From a bacterium 1XD42-54 (lineage in GTDB: Bacteria; Bacillota; Clostridia; Lachnospirales; Lachnospiraceae): a DNA stretch of 64,000 bases. Positions 15,049-23,218 of this stretch are shown one piece after another (position 1 is the stretch's first letter; each line of letters starts with the position of its first letter). Below the pieces are notes generated by a model. That model did no database searches. It worked only from the letters and a program-made list of their open reading frames with translations, and was not told where the DNA came from. The translations under genes were made by a program, and so were the position numbers. Where the stretch lies: positions 226,968 to 290,967 of the forward strand of contig RAZH01000003.1 in assembly GCA_003612585.1 (NCBI GenBank). Reading direction: 5' to 3'.

Positions 15049-17034
15049 TTATGTCTCTTCTTTCAGATATTTTTTCAATTCAATCATCCGGTCACGGAGC
15101 TCGGCTGCTGTCTCGAAGTCAAGCTCGGCTGCTGCTTTTTTCATCTGCTTCTGTACATCCGCAATCAGCTTTTCAAGCTCTTTCCGGCTCATAGATTCCG
15201 GATCTTTTTCCAGCTTCTTCTCTTCTTTGGCAATTGCCTTGGAGATACTAATCAGATCCCGCACTGCCTTCTTAATCGTCTGCGGCGTAATTCCATGCTC
15301 CTTATTATATGCCTCCTGAATTTCCCGACGGCGCTGCGTCTCAGACATTGCAACCTGCATCGACTCTGTGATCGTATCTGCGTACATAATTACATGCCCC
15401 TGTGCATTTCGCGCCGCACGTCCGATCGTCTGGATCATCGAAACTGCAGAACGAAGAAATCCTTCTTTATCCGCATCAAGAATCGCGACCAGAGAAATCT
15501 CAGGAATATCGAGTCCTTCTCTCAGAAGATTGATACCCACCAAAACATCGAACACATCCAGACGCATATCCCGGATAATTTCCGTCCGTTCCAGTGTATC
15601 AATGTCGGAATGCAAATAGCGGACACGAATCCCCACTTCTCTCATATAGTCTGTGAGATCCTCCGCCATCCGTTTCGTCAGTGTCGTCACAAGCACTTTA
15701 TTTCCGGCCGCTGTCTCTTTATTAATCTCACCGATCAGGTCGTCAATCTGCCCCTCTACCGGCCGCACTTCCACATTCGGATCTAAAAGTCCGGTCGGCC
15801 TGATGATCTGTTCTGCCCGAAGCAGCTCATGCGCGTCCTCATATTCTCCCGGGGTGGCAGAGACAAACAGAATCTGATCCAGCTTGTCCTCAAACTCCGT
15901 AAAATTCAGCGGTCTATTGTCTTTTGCAGACGGCAGACGGAATCCATAATCTACAAGTGTCGTTTTTCGCGACTGATCGCCTGCATACATCGCCCGCACC
16001 TGCGGAATCGTCTTATGCGACTCATCAACAATCAACAAAAAGTCGTCGCCAAAATAGTCAATCAACGTATGTGGTGTCGCCCCCGCCGGAAGCCCTGCCA
16101 GATGTCTTGAATAGTTCTCAATCCCGGAGCAAAAACCAGTCTCCCGCAACATTTCGATATCATAATTCGTCCGCTCCGCAATTCTCTGTGCTTCGAGCAA
16201 CTTATCCTCGCTTTTAAAATAAGAAACACGCCCTTCCAGTTCTTCCTCAATCGCTTTTGCTGCTGCCAGAATCTTCTCCATAGGCACTACATAATGAGAC
16301 GCCGGAAATACTGCGATAAACTCCAGACTGCGCCGTATCACTCCTGTCAGCACATCAATCTCTGTAATCCGGTCGATTTCATCTCCAAAAAATTCGACCC
16401 GATAGGCGTAGTCGTCTGAATTGGCCGGAAAAATTTCGAGTACATCACCGTGCGCCCGAAATGTGCCACGATGAAAATCCATCTCATTGCGATCATACTG
16501 AATATCCACAAGCGCCCGCATTACCTCGTCCCGGTCCTTCTCCTGTCCTCTGCGCAGATAAACAACGAGCTCCTTGTAATCAGACGGGCTACCGATTCCG
16601 TAAATGCACGACACACTTGATACAATAATCACATCCCTCCGCTCTACAAGCGACGCCGTGGCTGACAGGCGCAGCTTGTCAATCTCGTCATTGATCGAAG
16701 AATCCTTCGCAATATACGTATCTGACGAGGGAACATAAGCCTCCGGCTGGTAATAATCATAGTAGGACACAAAATACTCTACTGCATTCTCAGGGAACAT
16801 CTCCTTGAATTCTCCGTAAAGCTGCGCCGCAAGCGTCTTGTTGTGGGCGATAACCAGCGTCGGCTTCTGCAATTGCTGAATGACATTTGCCATGGTAAAT
16901 GTCTTACCGGAACCTGTAACTCCCAGTAAAGTCTGGAATTGATTACCCTCCTTGAAGCCTTTGACCAGCTCTGCGATTGCCTGCGGCTGGTCGCCTGTAG
17001 GCTTGTAGGGGGCTTGTAATTTGAACTCTGGCAT
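15049..17034 (-). CDS. uvrB: Excinuclease ABC subunit B
   Basis: DNA helicase-like subunit that verifies damage and recruits UvrC. It is 661 aa. [18 protein letters not shown] and Walker [15 protein letters not shown] lie at the N-terminus, the beta-hairpin [18 protein letters not shown] follows, DESHKTIPQ is motif II, and the C-terminal UVR motif is [21 protein letters not shown]. The gene is intact. The unusual point is upstream: an accessory cassette begins within 125 bp of its start. A second, diverged copy of its first roughly 87 codons lies 4.7 kb away at 21,790-22,051. No LexA-type box was recognised in the 210-bp upstream gap. Confidence 0.98.
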
Positions 17035-17060
17035 AGGAAAATCCTTTCTTTCGCGATATT

Positions 17061-17191
17061 GTTATGACTACTATAAGCCACATAATTCGTGCAATTTCAA
17101 TAAAAATGTGTGTAACTTTCCATTGTAAGGTTGATCTATAGGCAAACTTTTGTGATTACACGAATGCAAGTCACAAATTTGTAGTCATAAC
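17061..17191. repeat. 11-bp inverted repeat upstream of uvrB
   Basis: GTTATGACTAC (17061-17071) and its exact reverse complement GTAGTCATAAC (17181-17191) lie 109 bp apart, just outside and just inside the left direct repeat of the cassette. They may mark an old insertion junction. Significance is uncertain. Confidence 0.35.
17155..17177 (+). repeat. Left 23-bp direct repeat of the accessory cassette
   Basis: ATTACACGAAT, G, CA, A, GTCACAAA. It matches 21 of 23 positions with the copy at 21646-21668 in the same orientation. The two copies bracket exactly the DUF1016, HNH and ATPase genes, so they look like attachment-site or target-duplication remnants. Confidence 0.6.
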
Positions 17192-17244
17192 CATTTGCAA
17201 AGTAGTTTGTTACATATCCTGTATTATGAGCTTAACAATAGCTT

Positions 17245-18276
17245 TTACCTATCACCATCATAAATCAGTTGGTTTCTTTCCAACTCTCTCTGTAATTCTT
17301 CTACTGTCGGTAAAACTGTCATATATTTTGAAGCAAATATTTGTTGACTCTCATGTAACACAGAATATTTTACAATTGTTTCATCCTTATCCGTGCAAAA
17401 AATAATACCTATTGTTGGATTATCATCTTCTCTTCTTTTTAGATCATCAAACATCCTGACATACATATCCATTTGCCCTATATCCTGATGTGTCAGCTTT
17501 TTTGTTTTTAAATCAATAACTACGAAACATTTCAGAATATAATTATAGAAAACCAAATCTATATAGAAATCCGTTGTTTCAGTACATATTCTCATCTGTC
17601 TACCTACAAAAGAAAATCCTTTTCCCATTTCCAGCAGGAATTTCTGAAGATTATTTATAATTGCTGTTTCCAGATCACTTTCCAATTGACTGGTATTTTG
17701 AGTAACTCCCATAAATTCTAGCACAAACGGATCTTTCACAAATTCTAATACTTTATTTTCTTTATCCGGCAACTGTGTAGAAAGAATTCTTTTATAATAT
17801 CCACTTTTGATATTGCGTTCCAAGACTCTTACAGACCAATTTTCAGTCATAACTTCATTTAAATAAAAATTTCTTTCCTCTTCATCGGAAATACGCATTA
17901 TACTTCTTAAATGAGACCACGGAATTTTACCAGCCATTGAAAACCCATATGAATCCTCTGGAAATACCAAATAAAACTGACGGCAGTTTCTCAAATTTGC
18001 CATTGAAAAGCCTGTTCCAAACTCATCTGATAACTGTTCTGATAAATTTTTTATCAAATAGGAACCGTATTTTGTCTTCGTCTCTCCATATTGTTCCTGC
18101 TCAACAATTCGTCGTCCCACATTCCAATAAGCATATGTCATGATACTACTCGCGCTATTATATGCTTCTTCCCTTGCCCGTTGTAATATGAAACGCACAT
18201 CTTCATAGAATTGTTGTTCCTTTGTTATTAGAATTTCCGCAGATTCTCGCTTTAATAATTCATTCTTTTTCTCCAT
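17245..18276 (-). CDS. DUF1016 / YhcG-type PD-(D/E)XK nuclease-domain protein
   Basis: 343 aa. The N-terminal DUF1016 domain includes MTYAYWNVGRRIVEQEQ, YGSYLIKNLSEQLSDEFGTGFS and NLRNCRQFYLVFP. The C-terminal nuclease domain shows the PD-(D/E)XK core: Asp in DFYIDLVFYN and the D-x-K element of VVIDLKTKKLTHQDIGQMDMYV. The family is very common in accessory and defence islands; its target is not established. GGAGG lies 6 bases before the ATG, and a perfect palindrome sits directly upstream. AT-rich sequence, flanking direct repeats and two defence-like neighbours point to horizontal gain. It could be a stand-alone gene or part of the neighbouring module. Confidence 0.88.
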   Translation of the reverse strand: MEKKNELLKRESAEILITKEQQFYEDVRFILQRAREEAYNSASSIMTYAYWNVGRRIVEQEQYGETKTKYGSYLIKNLSEQLSDEFGTGFSMANLRNCRQFYLVFPEDSYGFSMAGKIPWSHLRSIMRISDEEERNFYLNEVMTENWSVRVLERNIKSGYYKRILSTQLPDKENKVLEFVKDPFVLEFMGVTQNTSQLESDLETAIINNLQKFLLEMGKGFSFVGRQMRICTETTDFYIDLVFYNYILKCFVVIDLKTKKLTHQDIGQMDMYVRMFDDLKRREDDNPTIGIIFCTDKDETIVKYSVLHESQQIFASKYMTVLPTVEELQRELERNQLIYDGDR

Positions 18277-18289
18277 CTTGCCTCCGCAG

Positions 18290-18313
18290 ATTCGCTACAC
18301 GCGTGTAGCGAAT
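18290..18313. promoter_or_regulatory. Perfect 24-bp palindrome upstream of the DUF1016 gene
   Basis: Each half is ATTCGCTACACG (18290-18301 and its complement 18302-18313). It lies 13 bp from the start codon, next to the ribosome binding site, so a protein bound there would block expression. A related palindrome lies at 23011-23032 beside the rhuM remnant. Confidence 0.6.
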
Positions 18314-18379
18314 TACTCTATAGTTTCATTAGGATATAATTATCCTACTATACATATTTTTTTCATATATCTAGAACCA

Positions 18380-19441
18380 TTATAAACTTTCTATCTCGAC
18401 ACCTATCTGAATCAGAATATCCTTTGTCAGTTTTGATAACGGCCTATTATGCATATATTCTTCATTATCAGAATACGAATATAAGGTTTCCACAATCTGC
18501 TTTTCATTAACGAAAATTCCTGCAAAATTTTTTAATAAAATGTCTTTATGCGTTTCAGAGTAAATATATCTTTTGCGTATCATCTCTTTTACATATTCCT
18601 TAGAATGATTATATTTCTTTTCCAAATGAAATGTTTCCTTGGAATTTTTCATTCTTTCACTCAATTTTTTCTCACCATTGCTATGCAGCTTGATTTTAAA
18701 ATTGTCTGAAATCCCTTGCCAGACCGTAGAATCAAATCTTTTTTCTTCTATATCTTCAATAGGCTCCTCGTATACAATATCTCTCGTATCATTACTATCA
18801 TAAACTTCTATAGAAAAATGATATTCATCATTTTCATTGTCGTAAAATGGATAAAATGTTCTTTTTGTTGAATCAGACTTTTCATGATTACATACCTTAC
18901 AACTTGGAACAAGGTTGAAAAAAGAAAGCACCAGTGCTGGGATTTCCTCTTTTGAATAATAATGATCCAAATCACCTTTAAAATATGCCTTCCTTTGTCC
19001 GTTCTCTTTACGAGTAACATAATTCTCTACAAAATTACGGTTGCAATATGGACATACTTCCACCCCCATAATCTGGACAATTTTTACTAATTTCATACTT
19101 TTGCGATAACTATCATAATTCTTCAGCAAAAAATATTCTGTATTTTTCAGCACCTTCTTCTTGTATTTAGAAATTACATATGCTTCATCAGATAAATCAT
19201 CGAAAATGTATTTTATGATTTTATCTCTCCATATATTATTTTTAATTGCAGATAAATTTGTATGATATTCACTTTTCCACTCGCTGAACTCTTTATTGGA
19301 CGTAAATATCATTTGTCGGAAAACAATATCATCTTCCAAAATATCCATCAGCTCTTTGATTCTGTCTTGCCTAAAAAACCAACTACTCCAAAGCTGTTTT
19401 ATCTCATTTATCTTTTTATCGTCAATTCTAATCCCAATCAT
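18380..19441 (-). CDS. HNH endonuclease, partner of the upstream ATPase (Septu PtuB-like)
   Basis: 353 aa. The centre carries an HNH core on a zinc ribbon: C130-PY-C133, then GDLDH (His160), then C181-KV-C184 with NLVPSC before it and NHEK after. The flanking regions are lysine- and glutamate-rich and unassigned. The ATG lies one base after the stop codon of the ATPase gene, so the two are translationally coupled. An SMC/OLD-like ATPase followed by an HNH nuclease is the layout of the Septu anti-phage system (PtuA, PtuB) and of related ATPase-HNH pairs. Assigning it to Septu rather than a sister family is inference from this layout and the motifs. Expected action: cutting DNA or tRNA on infection. 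Confidence 0.75.
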   Translation of the reverse strand: MIGIRIDDKKINEIKQLWSSWFFRQDRIKELMDILEDDIVFRQMIFTSNKEFSEWKSEYHTNLSAIKNNIWRDKIIKYIFDDLSDEAYVISKYKKKVLKNTEYFLLKNYDSYRKSMKLVKIVQIMGVEVCPYCNRNFVENYVTRKENGQRKAYFKGDLDHYYSKEEIPALVLSFFNLVPSCKVCNHEKSDSTKRTFYPFYDNENDEYHFSIEVYDSNDTRDIVYEEPIEDIEEKRFDSTVWQGISDNFKIKLHSNGEKKLSERMKNSKETFHLEKKYNHSKEYVKEMIRKRYIYSETHKDILLKNFAGIFVNEKQIVETLYSYSDNEEYMHNRPLSKLTKDILIQIGVEIESL

Positions 19442-19442
19442 G

Positions 19443-21530
19443 TTACCTATCCTCTAACATCTCCAAATAATCTTTTATTCTCTGTTTGTCATCTTGATTC
19501 GTTATCATTTCCAAAATTCTGTTTTTATTATTTAATAATTTTAATCTTTGTTTTCTATCTTCTAATTTCTTTTTCAGTATTTTTTGGATTACCGACTCAC
19601 CAATTTGGTCAACAAAATACTCTATGTTTTTAATATTTTCTTCATTGTCACGACCTAATTCTTCAATTTCCCTTGCTAAATTGTTAAGTTTCTTTGTGGC
19701 AAATTCGCCTACCGTATTTTCCATAAAAAATTGATTTTTCATTAAGTCATATACATTTGCTCCAAAGCAACTGTTTCCATTCATCTTATCCATTCTCTGT
19801 ACGCTTAATTGTCTTTCAACGCCTGACCTTTCCAATAAAAAAACATTTGATGGTAAAATATCTGACAGTAGATATGGGGAATGGGTTGACATAATTAATT
19901 GTATATCACATTCATGCTCTGGCTTTCCCAAAGTCTTCACCATGATATCAATAAATCTCCTAGCCCACTCGGGGTGCATAGCTTGATCTGGCTCATCCAT
20001 AATAGCAATCAGCAATTTCGTTTCTTTATCTTCTACAACACAATCCTTTATTTTTGCAATGGTATCAATAAAACGCTCTTCTCCTTCTGACAAAAGCCCA
20101 AAATGCACCTTGAATTGATTTTCAATATCTGAATGCCAATCCTTTTTTATTTTCTCCCACTCACTGTATTTCTTTAAAAATTTTTTCAAATAGAGATTAG
20201 ACTCCTTAACTACAAGAAACTCAATCCCATCCTTTTGGAAATATTCCTCAGGAATATCAAACATTTCTTCTGTCATTTTTTCCAATATATCTACATATCC
20301 AAAGTCATTATTATCTTCTTCCCCATGAATTCTGCTCCCAACATACCTGCCCAGTATTCTCAAACCAAATATTTCTGCTTGCTTATATTCCTCTTTCAAC
20401 CATGAAATTAATATTATGACTCGTGATAATTCTTCTTCATAGTCTATTGGTTTCCCCAACTTATCATAAGAACTCTCATTAGACTTAAGACTCAAAATAT
20501 ATTCCATATGATACACTATATCAATACGGGCTTTATCTCCACTGTGCCTTCCCCTTTCCCCTTCCTTACACAAAGAGTATAAACCGTTCACAAGCATATC
20601 CAATATGTATCTTGCATATAAATCCAAAATATATTTTTCTCTCTTATTTGTTTCCTCAGCCTTCTTTTTCTTATTAGATAATATATTAATTTTTTTCCAA
20701 AGTGGCAACATTTCTTCTATTTCATTTATTGTAGCTTTATACCTATCCTTAAAATTATCATCCGTCCACACCGGATACTCATAATCTATTTCATCATATA
20801 ATTTCACTTTAACTTTATCAAAATAAAAACCCTCTATATTATCCTCTATGCATTGACATATTACCAAATACTTAGTATAAACATTGGAACGAGAATACAT
20901 TTTCCTCCCAGCAATATAGTCATCATATCTAGGATTATAAATTCCATAGTGCTCATTTCTTTGACTATACCGATAGCTTTCATTAATATAAGCGTAACGA
21001 ATCAGATCACTTAATCTGTCCTCTTTGTTTTCTTCCATCTCATTAAAGAAATGCTTTCCCATGCTTATAAAACACTCGTTTTCATATCTGAATACAAGTC
21101 CTATAGAAACCTTCGCCTTATCATATCTGTCATCATCATCGCCCCTGTCATAATTTGTAAACATATCATAAAACACATTGGAACCTAACACTTCAATTCC
21201 AAATAATTCTTGCCCATAATCATTTTTTCCAATATAGTACAATAGTAAATATTCATCATCAACCTCATTCTTTTTCACAGATCCCCTAAGTCTATCATCC
21301 CTATTCATACCCAAAATGTCTAATAAAGTTGTCTTCCCTGAACCATTTTTTCCAACAAGAACAGATATATTTTTTATGCCATCGCCATAAAAATCTTTTA
21401 AATAATTCTTTTTTTCTCTCACTGTCAAAATTTTATTCTCCAAATGGACTTCAAAATCATTTGAAAATTGTATGCTTTGGTCATGAATAAAGTCCCCAAA
21501 TTTTTTTATATATGCAAATATTAACTCCAT
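19443..21530 (-). CDS. ABC/OLD-type AAA ATPase of a Septu-like defence pair (PtuA-like)
   Basis: 695 aa. It has Walker A VLVGKNGSGKTTLLDILG at about residues 58-74, ABC-type signature LLSEGEERFIDT near 478, Walker B LLIAIMDEPDQAMHPEW near 505-515 and the H-loop LIMSTHSPYLLSD. The long middle part (about residues 100-460) is charged and helical with no recognised domain. It may be the dimerisation or sensing region. The C-terminal 70 residues are rich in Lys, Asn and Glu and predicted coiled. GGGAGACAAGG precedes the ATG. It is first in the pair with the HNH gene; low GC and direct repeats around the cassette suggest transfer. Other ATPase-nuclease systems remain possible. Confidence 0.75.
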   Translation of the reverse strand: MELIFAYIKKFGDFIHDQSIQFSNDFEVHLENKILTVREKKNYLKDFYGDGIKNISVLVGKNGSGKTTLLDILGMNRDDRLRGSVKKNEVDDEYLLLYYIGKNDYGQELFGIEVLGSNVFYDMFTNYDRGDDDDRYDKAKVSIGLVFRYENECFISMGKHFFNEMEENKEDRLSDLIRYAYINESYRYSQRNEHYGIYNPRYDDYIAGRKMYSRSNVYTKYLVICQCIEDNIEGFYFDKVKVKLYDEIDYEYPVWTDDNFKDRYKATINEIEEMLPLWKKINILSNKKKKAEETNKREKYILDLYARYILDMLVNGLYSLCKEGERGRHSGDKARIDIVYHMEYILSLKSNESSYDKLGKPIDYEEELSRVIILISWLKEEYKQAEIFGLRILGRYVGSRIHGEEDNNDFGYVDILEKMTEEMFDIPEEYFQKDGIEFLVVKESNLYLKKFLKKYSEWEKIKKDWHSDIENQFKVHFGLLSEGEERFIDTIAKIKDCVVEDKETKLLIAIMDEPDQAMHPEWARRFIDIMVKTLGKPEHECDIQLIMSTHSPYLLSDILPSNVFLLERSGVERQLSVQRMDKMNGNSCFGANVYDLMKNQFFMENTVGEFATKKLNNLAREIEELGRDNEENIKNIEYFVDQIGESVIQKILKKKLEDRKQRLKLLNNKNRILEMITNQDDKQRIKDYLEMLEDR

Positions 21531-21645
21531 CCTTGTCTCCCTTTATGTACTTATTCAATTCACGGCAGTCCATCCAAATCTTTTATGAAAAATTTGTCTC
21601 AAATCTCAGATTTCTCATATAATGATATTTTATATTATCCCATCC

Positions 21646-21668
21646 ATTACACGAATCCAGGTCACAAA
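21646..21668 (+). repeat. Right 23-bp direct repeat of the accessory cassette
   Basis: ATTACACGAAT, C, CA, G, GTCACAAA. It is the partner of 17155-17177 with two differences, and lies 115 bp upstream of the ATPase start codon. Confidence 0.6.
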
Positions 21669-21782
21669 CTCCACCCATCCGCCTAGTGTTATTTCGTCCA
21701 TAATCCCCCATCTTGTCCACAAAATACGGTACAATCAACACCAAATAACACTAAATAATGCGATTTTCACCCTGTCCCCAAA

Positions 21783-22130
21783 TTAGGAGACAAAATACTC
21801 CACTGCATTCTCCGGGAACATCTCCTTGAATTCTCCATAGAGCTGCGCAGCAAGCGTCTTGTTGTTGGCGATTACCAGCGTTGGCTTCTGCAAGGCTTGT
21901 ATCACATTTACCATTGTGAATGTCTTGCCGGAACCCGTAACCCCTAGTAAAGTCTGGAATTGATTGCCTTCCTGAAAGTCTTTCACCAGCTCGGCGATTG
22001 CCTGCGGCTGATCGCCGGTGGGCTTGTATAGGGCATGTAATTTAAAAGCATGCCCGTCCTTTGGGCGGCTTTTATGAGCAAGTAGCTGACTGCTGTCAGC
22101 GGATTGCGAATGTCCTCTTTCTTTTTGCAT
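21783..22130 (-). pseudogene. Truncated, diverged duplicate of the uvrB 5' end
   Basis: From about 22,051 to 21,790 the minus strand encodes the first roughly 87 residues of UvrB. These include [15 protein letters not shown] and the Walker [14 protein letters not shown], up to EYFVS, where it stops. Compared with the intact UvrB at 15049-17034 there are scattered replacements (KDFQ for KGFK, MVN for MAN, QALQ for QQLQ, ANN for AHN), and the DNA differs at many third positions. It is therefore not a recent copy of the neighbouring gene. The open frame starts earlier, at ATG 22130, but those 28 residues are not UvrB-like. Similarity ends abruptly at a GTATTTTGT sequence. It cannot make a functional UvrB. 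Confidence 0.85.
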
Positions 22131-22172: not shown

Positions 22173-22980
22173 CTATTGAGAACTTTTGTTTTTACTGATA
22201 TCATCTTTCTCTATTTCTAGCAACATACGATCAAAATCACTCTGATACAGTTGATCCTGTCTTACCCGGTATTTCTCAAATTCACTTAACGCATACTGCT
22301 CTGCCATTTTGGCAGAAATAGTTCCTGCATGTGTCAATATTTCCTTTTTTGACAACTTTAAAATCCCCTCAAACTGTTCCGCCCAATCTTCCATCGTCAT
22401 TGGAATCTGTTCTTCTGCACGCAGTTCTGCAAGATCTAAGTATGCATTTACAATTCTTGCCATCGCTGATAACTCTTCCTCAGTCAGATAATTTTTTGCC
22501 ACAACAACATCAAACCTCTGAATTTTTCCATTCGGAGAATCTTTCCATGTCTGGAGTCCCATATGTTCTTTCTCACTGTCCGCTCTATGATAAATCATTT
22601 CCGCCGCTGTTTCCCCATGAATTGCCCAATGCAGCTGATTCTGCACTTTCGCAAAAAACTGCCTGGTAGTTTGCGCTTTGGAATCATAGTCGATGCTTGT
22701 AGCATATATATCAGTAACTTTCTGATAACCGAATCTCCCGAATTCTTTGTAACTGTTCTTCAAAATAGTCTTTCGTCAAAACCGTTCCAAAATTTTTCAG
22801 GCGTTCATCGTCCATTGCAAATCCTTTAATCGTAAATTCCTCTATAACTCCATTTGCCCACTTTCGGAATTGAACTGCCCTCGCAGAATCAACTTTATTT
22901 CCTACAGCAATGATGGCCTTCAAATTATAATGATTTATATTATAGCATTTTCCGTATGATAGATATTTCCTTTTTCTGTT
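22173..22980 (-). pseudogene. Broken RhuM-family gene
   Basis: Two frames together match the middle and C-terminus of RhuM ('virulence') proteins. Frame one (about 22980-22711) has INHYNLKAIIAVGNKVDSAR, QFRKWANGVIEEF and ERLKNFG. Frame two (from about 22740 to 22173) has YQKVTDIYATSIDYDSKAQT, FFAKVQNQLHWAI, ETAAEMIYHRADSEK and IPMTMEDWAEQFEGILKL. The break falls in RIREIR, where a small deletion removes the usual linking residues and shifts the frame. The first roughly 80 residues of the family (DNA-binding-like domain) are missing behind an in-frame stop at 22981. The gene is therefore dead unless a shorter product is made. RhuM genes are common in mobile and defence islands, matching the neighbours. 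Confidence 0.8.
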
Positions 22981-23080: not shown

Positions 23081-23218
23081 TCATATTTTGTCTTGACGAA
23101 TTTTTATCGCAAAATCCGTATTTTCCCAATCCTCTTCAGAACATTTGTTCTTTTGACAATTCTAGCAGATATTATCGACAAATACAAGGGCTAAATTTTC
23201 TTTACCATCTATTTTACC
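23081..23218 (-). pseudogene. Unidentified gene remnant
   Basis: The frame reads GKIDGKENLALVFVDNIC, stop, NCQKNKCSEEDWENTDF and on to a second stop. A single TAG interrupts otherwise protein-like sequence with paired cysteines. It lies upstream of the broken rhuM gene. I do not recognise the family. A GGAGGTGG followed by TTG lies just downstream (near 23,050) and opens only a 12-codon frame. Confidence 0.35.

Follow-up and report, generated by a model that had tools for sequence, protein, structure and literature searches.

Prophage e14 at icd carries a replacement end of the gene that it interrupts, which yields a hybrid gene. Cis-mobilizable elements (CIMEs) were taken as defined in PMC5704250. 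A locus with features of both was analysed here in a 64,000-nucleotide stretch of a Lachnospiraceae genome (1XD42-54, contig RAZH01000003.1; the window), at the 5' end of uvrB. The initial annotation had described three genes at this locus, for a DUF1016 nuclease, an HNH nuclease and an ATPase, as a cassette bracketed exactly by two 23-bp direct repeats (S), and had offered as one option a non-autonomous element served by a recombinase encoded at another place. That option was well supported by comparison with recombinase-bearing relatives. Judged from sequence, the locus is very probably a recombinase-less, site-specifically integrated member of a family of uvrB-targeting tyrosine-recombinase elements, at least one of them conjugative.

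With CIMEs the window element shares two retained junctions and a lack of integration and transfer genes, and it sits where related, fuller elements integrate, in keeping with stepwise accretion. Site and ends are shared with these fuller elements, which have recombinases directly upstream of uvrB and, in one case, a relaxase and a coupling protein. It differs from CIMEs as defined in PMC5704250 in that it enters a coding gene near the 5' end, with about 90 codons plus the leader replaced, and in that cis-mobilization is putative. The integrase and conjugation machinery of an integrative and conjugative element were both absent from the window element by open reading frames (ORFs), Pfam and PADLOC. 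The likeness to e14 lies in the replacement gene end that is brought in, which is the 3' end for e14 and the 5' end plus leader here. The two recombinases of the relatives (Int1 and Int2) are not integron integrases by score (50.5 and 19.7 bits, respectively, against a TIGR02249 cut-off of 265). Int2 matched PDB entries 6emy, 6emz and 6en0, listed as 'Int protein', which we take to be Tn1549 Int. Its catalytic domain is similar to that of Tn1549/Tn916-kind integrases; the difference is that the recombinases here are uvrB-linked, often occur as two in tandem, and leave the target gene restored. The ATPase and HNH genes form a pair as in Septu (PtuA-PtuB), with weak sequence similarity. Their best models are instead PDC-M62A and PDC-M62B, and their scores fall far under the NCBIfam cut-offs for Septu (PtuA 33.3 against 500 bits, PtuB 16.9 against 150 bits).

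The kind of element is known (CIME, PMC5704250), but an apparently undescribed variant is marked here by insertion in uvrB, by a 5' replacement of 90 codons and by an SOS-type box carried along. No description of uvrB as an integration site was found in the literature searched, with preprints and most subscription journals outside its scope. The locus would thus represent an apparently undescribed integration site and element family, with predicted anti-phage genes, in hosts labelled for the most part Lachnospiraceae or other Clostridia. The first 90 codons of a core repair gene can apparently be swapped between species with no more than 70-80% identity in the uvrB body, and such exchange would mislead uvrB-based phylogenies and annotations in these bacteria. 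The repeated uvrB fragments offer a simple handle for finding more cargo, and a possible effect of the new 5' end on SOS control or repair is directly testable.

Borders of the element in uvrB

The 5' end of uvrB is present twice in the window, as a 268-bp direct duplication (16758-17025 and 21779-22046, 86% identical). The two copies agree across TCCTA and differ on either side, which places the exchange at these five letters in each copy (Table 1). From the spacing of the duplication, the inserted unit is 5,021 bp long (about 16,768-21,788) and contains a left end, the three genes, a right end and a replacement 5' end for uvrB, with the join at codons 90-91. Both junctions, attL and attR (putative sites), are retained in sequence. 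Read in the sense direction, the order is a broken RhuM gene, a truncated piece of uvrB, a block of about 115 bp, S, ATPase, HNH, DUF1016, S, leader and full uvrB, with all three cargo genes on the minus strand. The displaced uvrB fragment has 92% amino acid identity over codons 4-90 (tblastn) and ends after EYFVS, at codon 90.

Much of the initial annotation held on re-examination: the S copies agree at 21 of 23 positions, the interior is AT-rich (31.4% GC between the S repeats, 48.5% in the uvrB body and 45.0% in the window), and ORF list, Pfam and PADLOC gave no integrase among the three genes between the repeats. Likewise, neither integration nor conjugation genes were found among the three long ORFs between the junctions. 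S is the only pair of such similarity within 17,000-21,780, and an S-like pair arose in 0 of 60 Markov-1 simulations of the stretch. The whole 3.70-Mb genome holds two copies (up to 3 mismatches to the pattern, with the two differing positions left free), and a chance origin of the repeats was rejected on this count and the simulations. The observation was right in kind, but the true unit is larger than S to S: exact bracketing by S makes it too small, since its borders are those of the uvrB duplication, near codon 91.

Comparison with relatives also pointed to a breakpoint in uvrB. Over codons 10-89, six uvrB 5' ends (those of the full genes of the window, genomes G054, G061 and G064 and locus L090, and that of a displaced fragment in G052) had 93-98% mutual identity, the window's being 93-95% identical to the other five. 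The uvrB bodies of this set were 70-80% identical to each other and 70-72% to that of the window, and the remaining 5'-end pairs were mostly 70-85% identical. For L090 and the window, identity was 93.5% over codons 4-90 and 71.4% over codons 96-600, and in the alignment it fell after GAGTATTTTGTGTCCTA. The breakpoint was estimated at nt 275 of uvrB against three relatives and at nt 293 (range 267-308) against L090. When two rates were fitted to 15 pairs, the range included nt 275 in 9, one of which was uninformative; the estimate is blurred because the codons just past 91 are conserved. A further mosaic case was L101 against G060 (5' ends 88-89%, body 71%).

The window's displaced fragment was 86-91% identical to the element-borne 5'-end group. 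Since it resembles the element-borne type, an earlier element had likely replaced the native start, and the native uvrB start of the window had probably been lost before the present insertion. The broken RhuM gene upstream fits a trace of that older insertion.

Related elements and their recombinases

The first 85 uvrB residues were searched against 47 genomes of the genus, and 40 stretches were fetched. Second, partial uvrB starts were present in several of these genomes. Fragments ending at codons 90-91 were found in G022, G023, G035, G040, G041, G034 and the window, each followed by a similar block ending in S and then by differing cargo; G006 and G046 had diverged versions of this arrangement. 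A second left-end type at the same uvrB codon, with no immediate stop, was seen in L049 (4086-4400, G006) and L147 (8221-8343, G053).

A left-block pattern, which favours one left-end type, returned 40 loci (some sharing a genome) from 84,980 species genomes. The block was preceded by a uvrB fragment ending at codon 90-94 in 37 of the 40; the exceptions were L090, whose contig begins inside the block, and L078 and L080, which have no uvrB fragment. An in-frame stop at codon 91 or 92 was present in the window and in 37/37 collected uvrB junctions. The two remaining junctions, beside a ppdK-like gene, also gave a stop in the matching frame (40/40 readable junctions overall). The hosts were labelled mostly as Lachnospiraceae or other Clostridia; many are metagenome bins and some are named strains.

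The main part of uvrB was recovered in 20 of the 21 genomes behind 22 of the 40 loci. Between fragment and uvrB lay 31 kb in G061, 25 kb in G054, 66 kb in G058 and 65 kb in G066, intervals that may contain more than one insertion. In all four, tyrosine recombinases were found directly upstream of uvrB: G061 and G066 each have Int1 (408 aa) and Int2 (441 aa) as a tandem pair, the copies of G054 are broken, and G058 has one recombinase. In each of them the stretch between recombinase and uvrB contains an SOS-type box as well as a leader in which S occurs in both orientations. The tandem recombinases of G061 (L114, 13566-16077) are about 28% identical to each other. Conjugation genes were checked in the 65-kb interval of G066, which encodes a relaxase and a coupling protein; it also encodes an EF-G-family GTPase (L123, 1858-3777), by eye of the ribosomal-protection kind.

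Relatives of Int2 (E <=1e-30) were present in 15 of the 21 genomes, and in 10 of the 21 they lay within 0.5 kb of a full-length uvrB. In an even sample of 348 genomes of the family, Int2 (E <=1e-60) was found in 22, and uvrB lay inside the 1.5-kb flank in 16 of the 20 loci returned, which overlap in part with the 21 genomes searched earlier. Successive uvrB starts, each with recombinase sequence before it, were present in G056, G061 and G066, an order that fits stepwise accretion. In G056 (C3, 260612-389747) recombinases stand beside the full uvrB and beside a fragment that lies 103 kb upstream of it; another fragment is found still further out, and the elements appear to be stacked.

The comparison supports the following course. 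Members of the family join the gene at codons 90-91, which in the window means within TCCTA. At the left end the resident copy is truncated, as a rule with an in-frame stop straight after the junction, and a new 5' end comes with the right end, so that the reading frame of uvrB in the host stays open, although the gene is mosaic. The right end of fuller elements also brings an SOS-type box and either one tyrosine recombinase or two. The recombinases would work on the core in uvrB, with the S repeats bound as arm sites. Recombinase and transfer genes may have been lost from the window copy or may never have been part of it, and it would depend on a related element for movement. It appears to have landed on a previously used site, given the likeness of the displaced fragment to the element-borne type and its place after a broken RhuM gene.

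A helper was sought in the window's own genome with Int2 alone, and no close relative was found, the best-scoring match being only 28% identical; a more distant helper may be present. With no recombinase in the window copy and no close Int2 relative in its genome, the copy reads as a decayed, cis-mobilizable-type element. Phage origin was rejected: the left-end pattern had 0 matches in viral_contigs, and Int2 stayed below 60% identity in phage and plasmid records (23-28% among the 16 matches listed). The window element had no match in plasmid records.

The S repeats and alternative explanations

S was surveyed in 22 rows representing 21 distinct elements (L094 and G057 are one; a right match in G052 was dropped as coding). 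It was present at both ends in 11 of the 21, window included, as an internal end site rather than a border. An inverted S copy stands on the right side in 10 of the 11 two-S elements, and a SOS-type box lies within 700 nt of uvrB in 9 of the 11, the window and G022 having none. In the window and L090 the cargo abuts the right S and the promoter region is missing; the perfect SOS-type box nearest to uvrB in the window is the distant one in Table 1, 6.1 kb upstream. From these layouts S probably serves the recombinase as an arm site rather than as the point of crossover.

An empty site with a single repeat upstream of uvrB had been proposed as a check. Of the 37 genomes represented in the fetched stretches, 18, counting that of the window, had S within 300 nt upstream of a uvrB start (19 loci, at most 1 mismatch; some stretches end too near uvrB to judge). 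In 10 of the 18, uvrB-linked recombinase sequence, sometimes only in pieces, was present in the same stretch, so these loci are not empty sites. The stretches of the other 8 had no recombinase. Three of these 8, G016, G017 and G018, had neither recombinase nor uvrB fragment in 15-18 kb upstream, and could be scars or the predicted single-repeat sites. G016 also has two apparently identical uvrB starts on separate contigs (C25 and C96), perhaps an assembly duplicate.

Several observations weigh against site-specific insertion at uvrB as set out above. In six of the 15 pairs the breakpoint range does not include nt 275 (it lies to the right in five and to the left in one). The flank is without uvrB at four of the 20 family-level Int2 loci, of which L161, at least, is a shortened stretch. 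The left ends of L078 and L080 lie downstream of ppdK, not uvrB. In 10 of the 21 distinct elements S is missing from at least one side, so it would be dispensable, or the copies without it dead. G016, G017 and G018 are single-S loci without recombinase or fragment, and no same-species pair of an empty and a filled site was among the genomes compared. The ppdK site is possibly a secondary integration site.

The cassette reading of the initial annotation, in which the three genes moved together by recombination between S and S, integron-like or serial, has a slim chance of being correct. S does bracket the cargo, the three letters after ATTCGT match at both ends in 8 of 11 two-S elements (they differ in G006, G061a and G054), several full elements encode two recombinases, and some single-S loci lack recombinase and fragment. 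However, none of the 22 rows was cargo-free, with at least about 1.2 kb between fragment and next uvrB start. L090 has the left block and DUF1016-S-leader but no ATPase-HNH pair, so the contents are not one unit. The SOS-type box stands upstream of the right S in 9 of the 11 two-S elements, so there the cargo does not abut that repeat. The mosaic breakpoint falls in uvrB, near codon 91, and S as the excision point was set aside as the best reading.

Alternatively, after a single ancient insertion, cargo could have turned over by ordinary homologous recombination between left blocks, between leaders or between copies of the uvrB 5' end. In favour of this, the units stand between long direct repeats, and similar frames contain different cargo modules; it leaves unexplained the tight, family-wide linkage of recombinase and uvrB, the meeting of unlike left-end sequences at the same codon and the stacked fragments with recombinase sequence before them. 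It is about as improbable as the cassette, and homologous recombination may act in addition to site-specific insertion. An assembly or contamination artefact, or a chance uvrB 5' duplication, is barely credible: many relatives are metagenome bins, but the window is an internal part of a contig of 361 kb, the genome has 34 contigs and a completeness rating of 99.98%, and the same junction recurs in 37 of the 40 collected loci, some from named strains.

A bolder extension of insertion at uvrB, which we hold to be unlikely, would treat the first 90 codons, leader and SOS-type promoter as a mobile half-gene with which a family of conjugative elements, on insertion, repeatedly rewrites both promoter and N-terminal part of a core repair gene, tying repair to element control. 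The paired recombinases would then split the work between uvrB core and S, and defence cargo would be swapped between S sites without leaving uvrB.

Cargo genes and flanking features

The DUF1016 protein scored 145 bits for DUF1016_N (gathering score 32.8) and 195 bits for YhcG_C (32.5). The adjacent ATPase and HNH genes were assigned to PDC-M62 at 138 and 192 bits, PADLOC giving no cut-off; the HNH-type protein had no Pfam match, and the ATPase matched solved PtuA and retron ATPase structures weakly. The ATPase was found in 4 other genomes among the 348 of the family (E <=1e-40), each time with the HNH gene beside it and in no case with DUF1016 (fetched stretches of 8-14 kb, one of the four loci cut by a contig end). 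DUF1016 without the pair was cargo in L090, L073 and G052. Since pair and DUF1016 occur separately, in four of four genomes and in three elements, the trio is composite and not the single unit first annotated; by sequence it is two separable defence candidates, the ATPase-HNH pair and the DUF1016 nuclease. The cargo is predicted to be anti-phage, combining a PtuAB-like ATPase-HNH pair with a DUF1016 nuclease.

Table 1. Coordinates of the element and its surroundings in the window
Feature	Position	Strand	Basis
Right junction (attR), putative crossover zone TCCTA, uvrB codons 90-91	16763..16767	-	Copies agree here and diverge to either side; mosaic breakpoints
Element-borne replacement uvrB 5' end, ~89 codons	16768..17034	-	93-95% identical to relatives' 5' ends
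Leader, right S to uvrB start, with inverted repeat-core copy at 17085-17095	17035..17154	-	Sequence; relatives' right ends similarly laid out
Right S, putative recombinase arm-type site	17155..17177	-	Repeat searches; binding presumed
DUF1016/YhcG PD-(D/E)xK nuclease, PADLOC PDC-S02	17245..18276	-	PF06250 195 bits, PF17761 145 bits
HNH-type nuclease, PADLOC PDC-M62B	18380..19441	-	PDC-M62B 192 bits, weak PtuB matches
AAA ATPase, PADLOC PDC-M62A, PtuA-like	19443..21530	-	PF13304 65.6 bits; PDC-M62A 138 bits
Left S, inner end of left terminal block	21646..21668	-	Repeat searches
Left terminal block, first bases giving in-frame stop to displaced uvrB fragment	21669..21783	-	Pattern in 40 loci
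Left junction (attL), putative crossover zone TCCTA	21784..21788	-	Copy comparison, junction reading
Earlier uvrB 5' end, displaced and cut short; ORF of 115 aa with EYFVS before the stop	21783..22130	-	tblastn, ORF
Broken RhuM gene, two ORFs, probable cargo of older insertion	22173..22923	-	PF13310 in both ORFs
LexA/SOS-type box GAACATTTGTTC	23139..23150	+ strand sequence	Only perfect GAACN4GTTC in window

The left ends beside the ppdK-like gene (named by eye; L078 6365-6541, L080 4762-4942) follow about 28 nt resembling the uvrB core. No right ends were found downstream of them in about 33 kb of G053 and in 21 kb of G051, to the contig end. RhuM-like genes were recurrent cargo (L055, L065, L066, L082, L096, L107 and the window), several of them in elements without a right S; they were identified by Pfam for the window ORFs and by eye from N-termini in the other elements.

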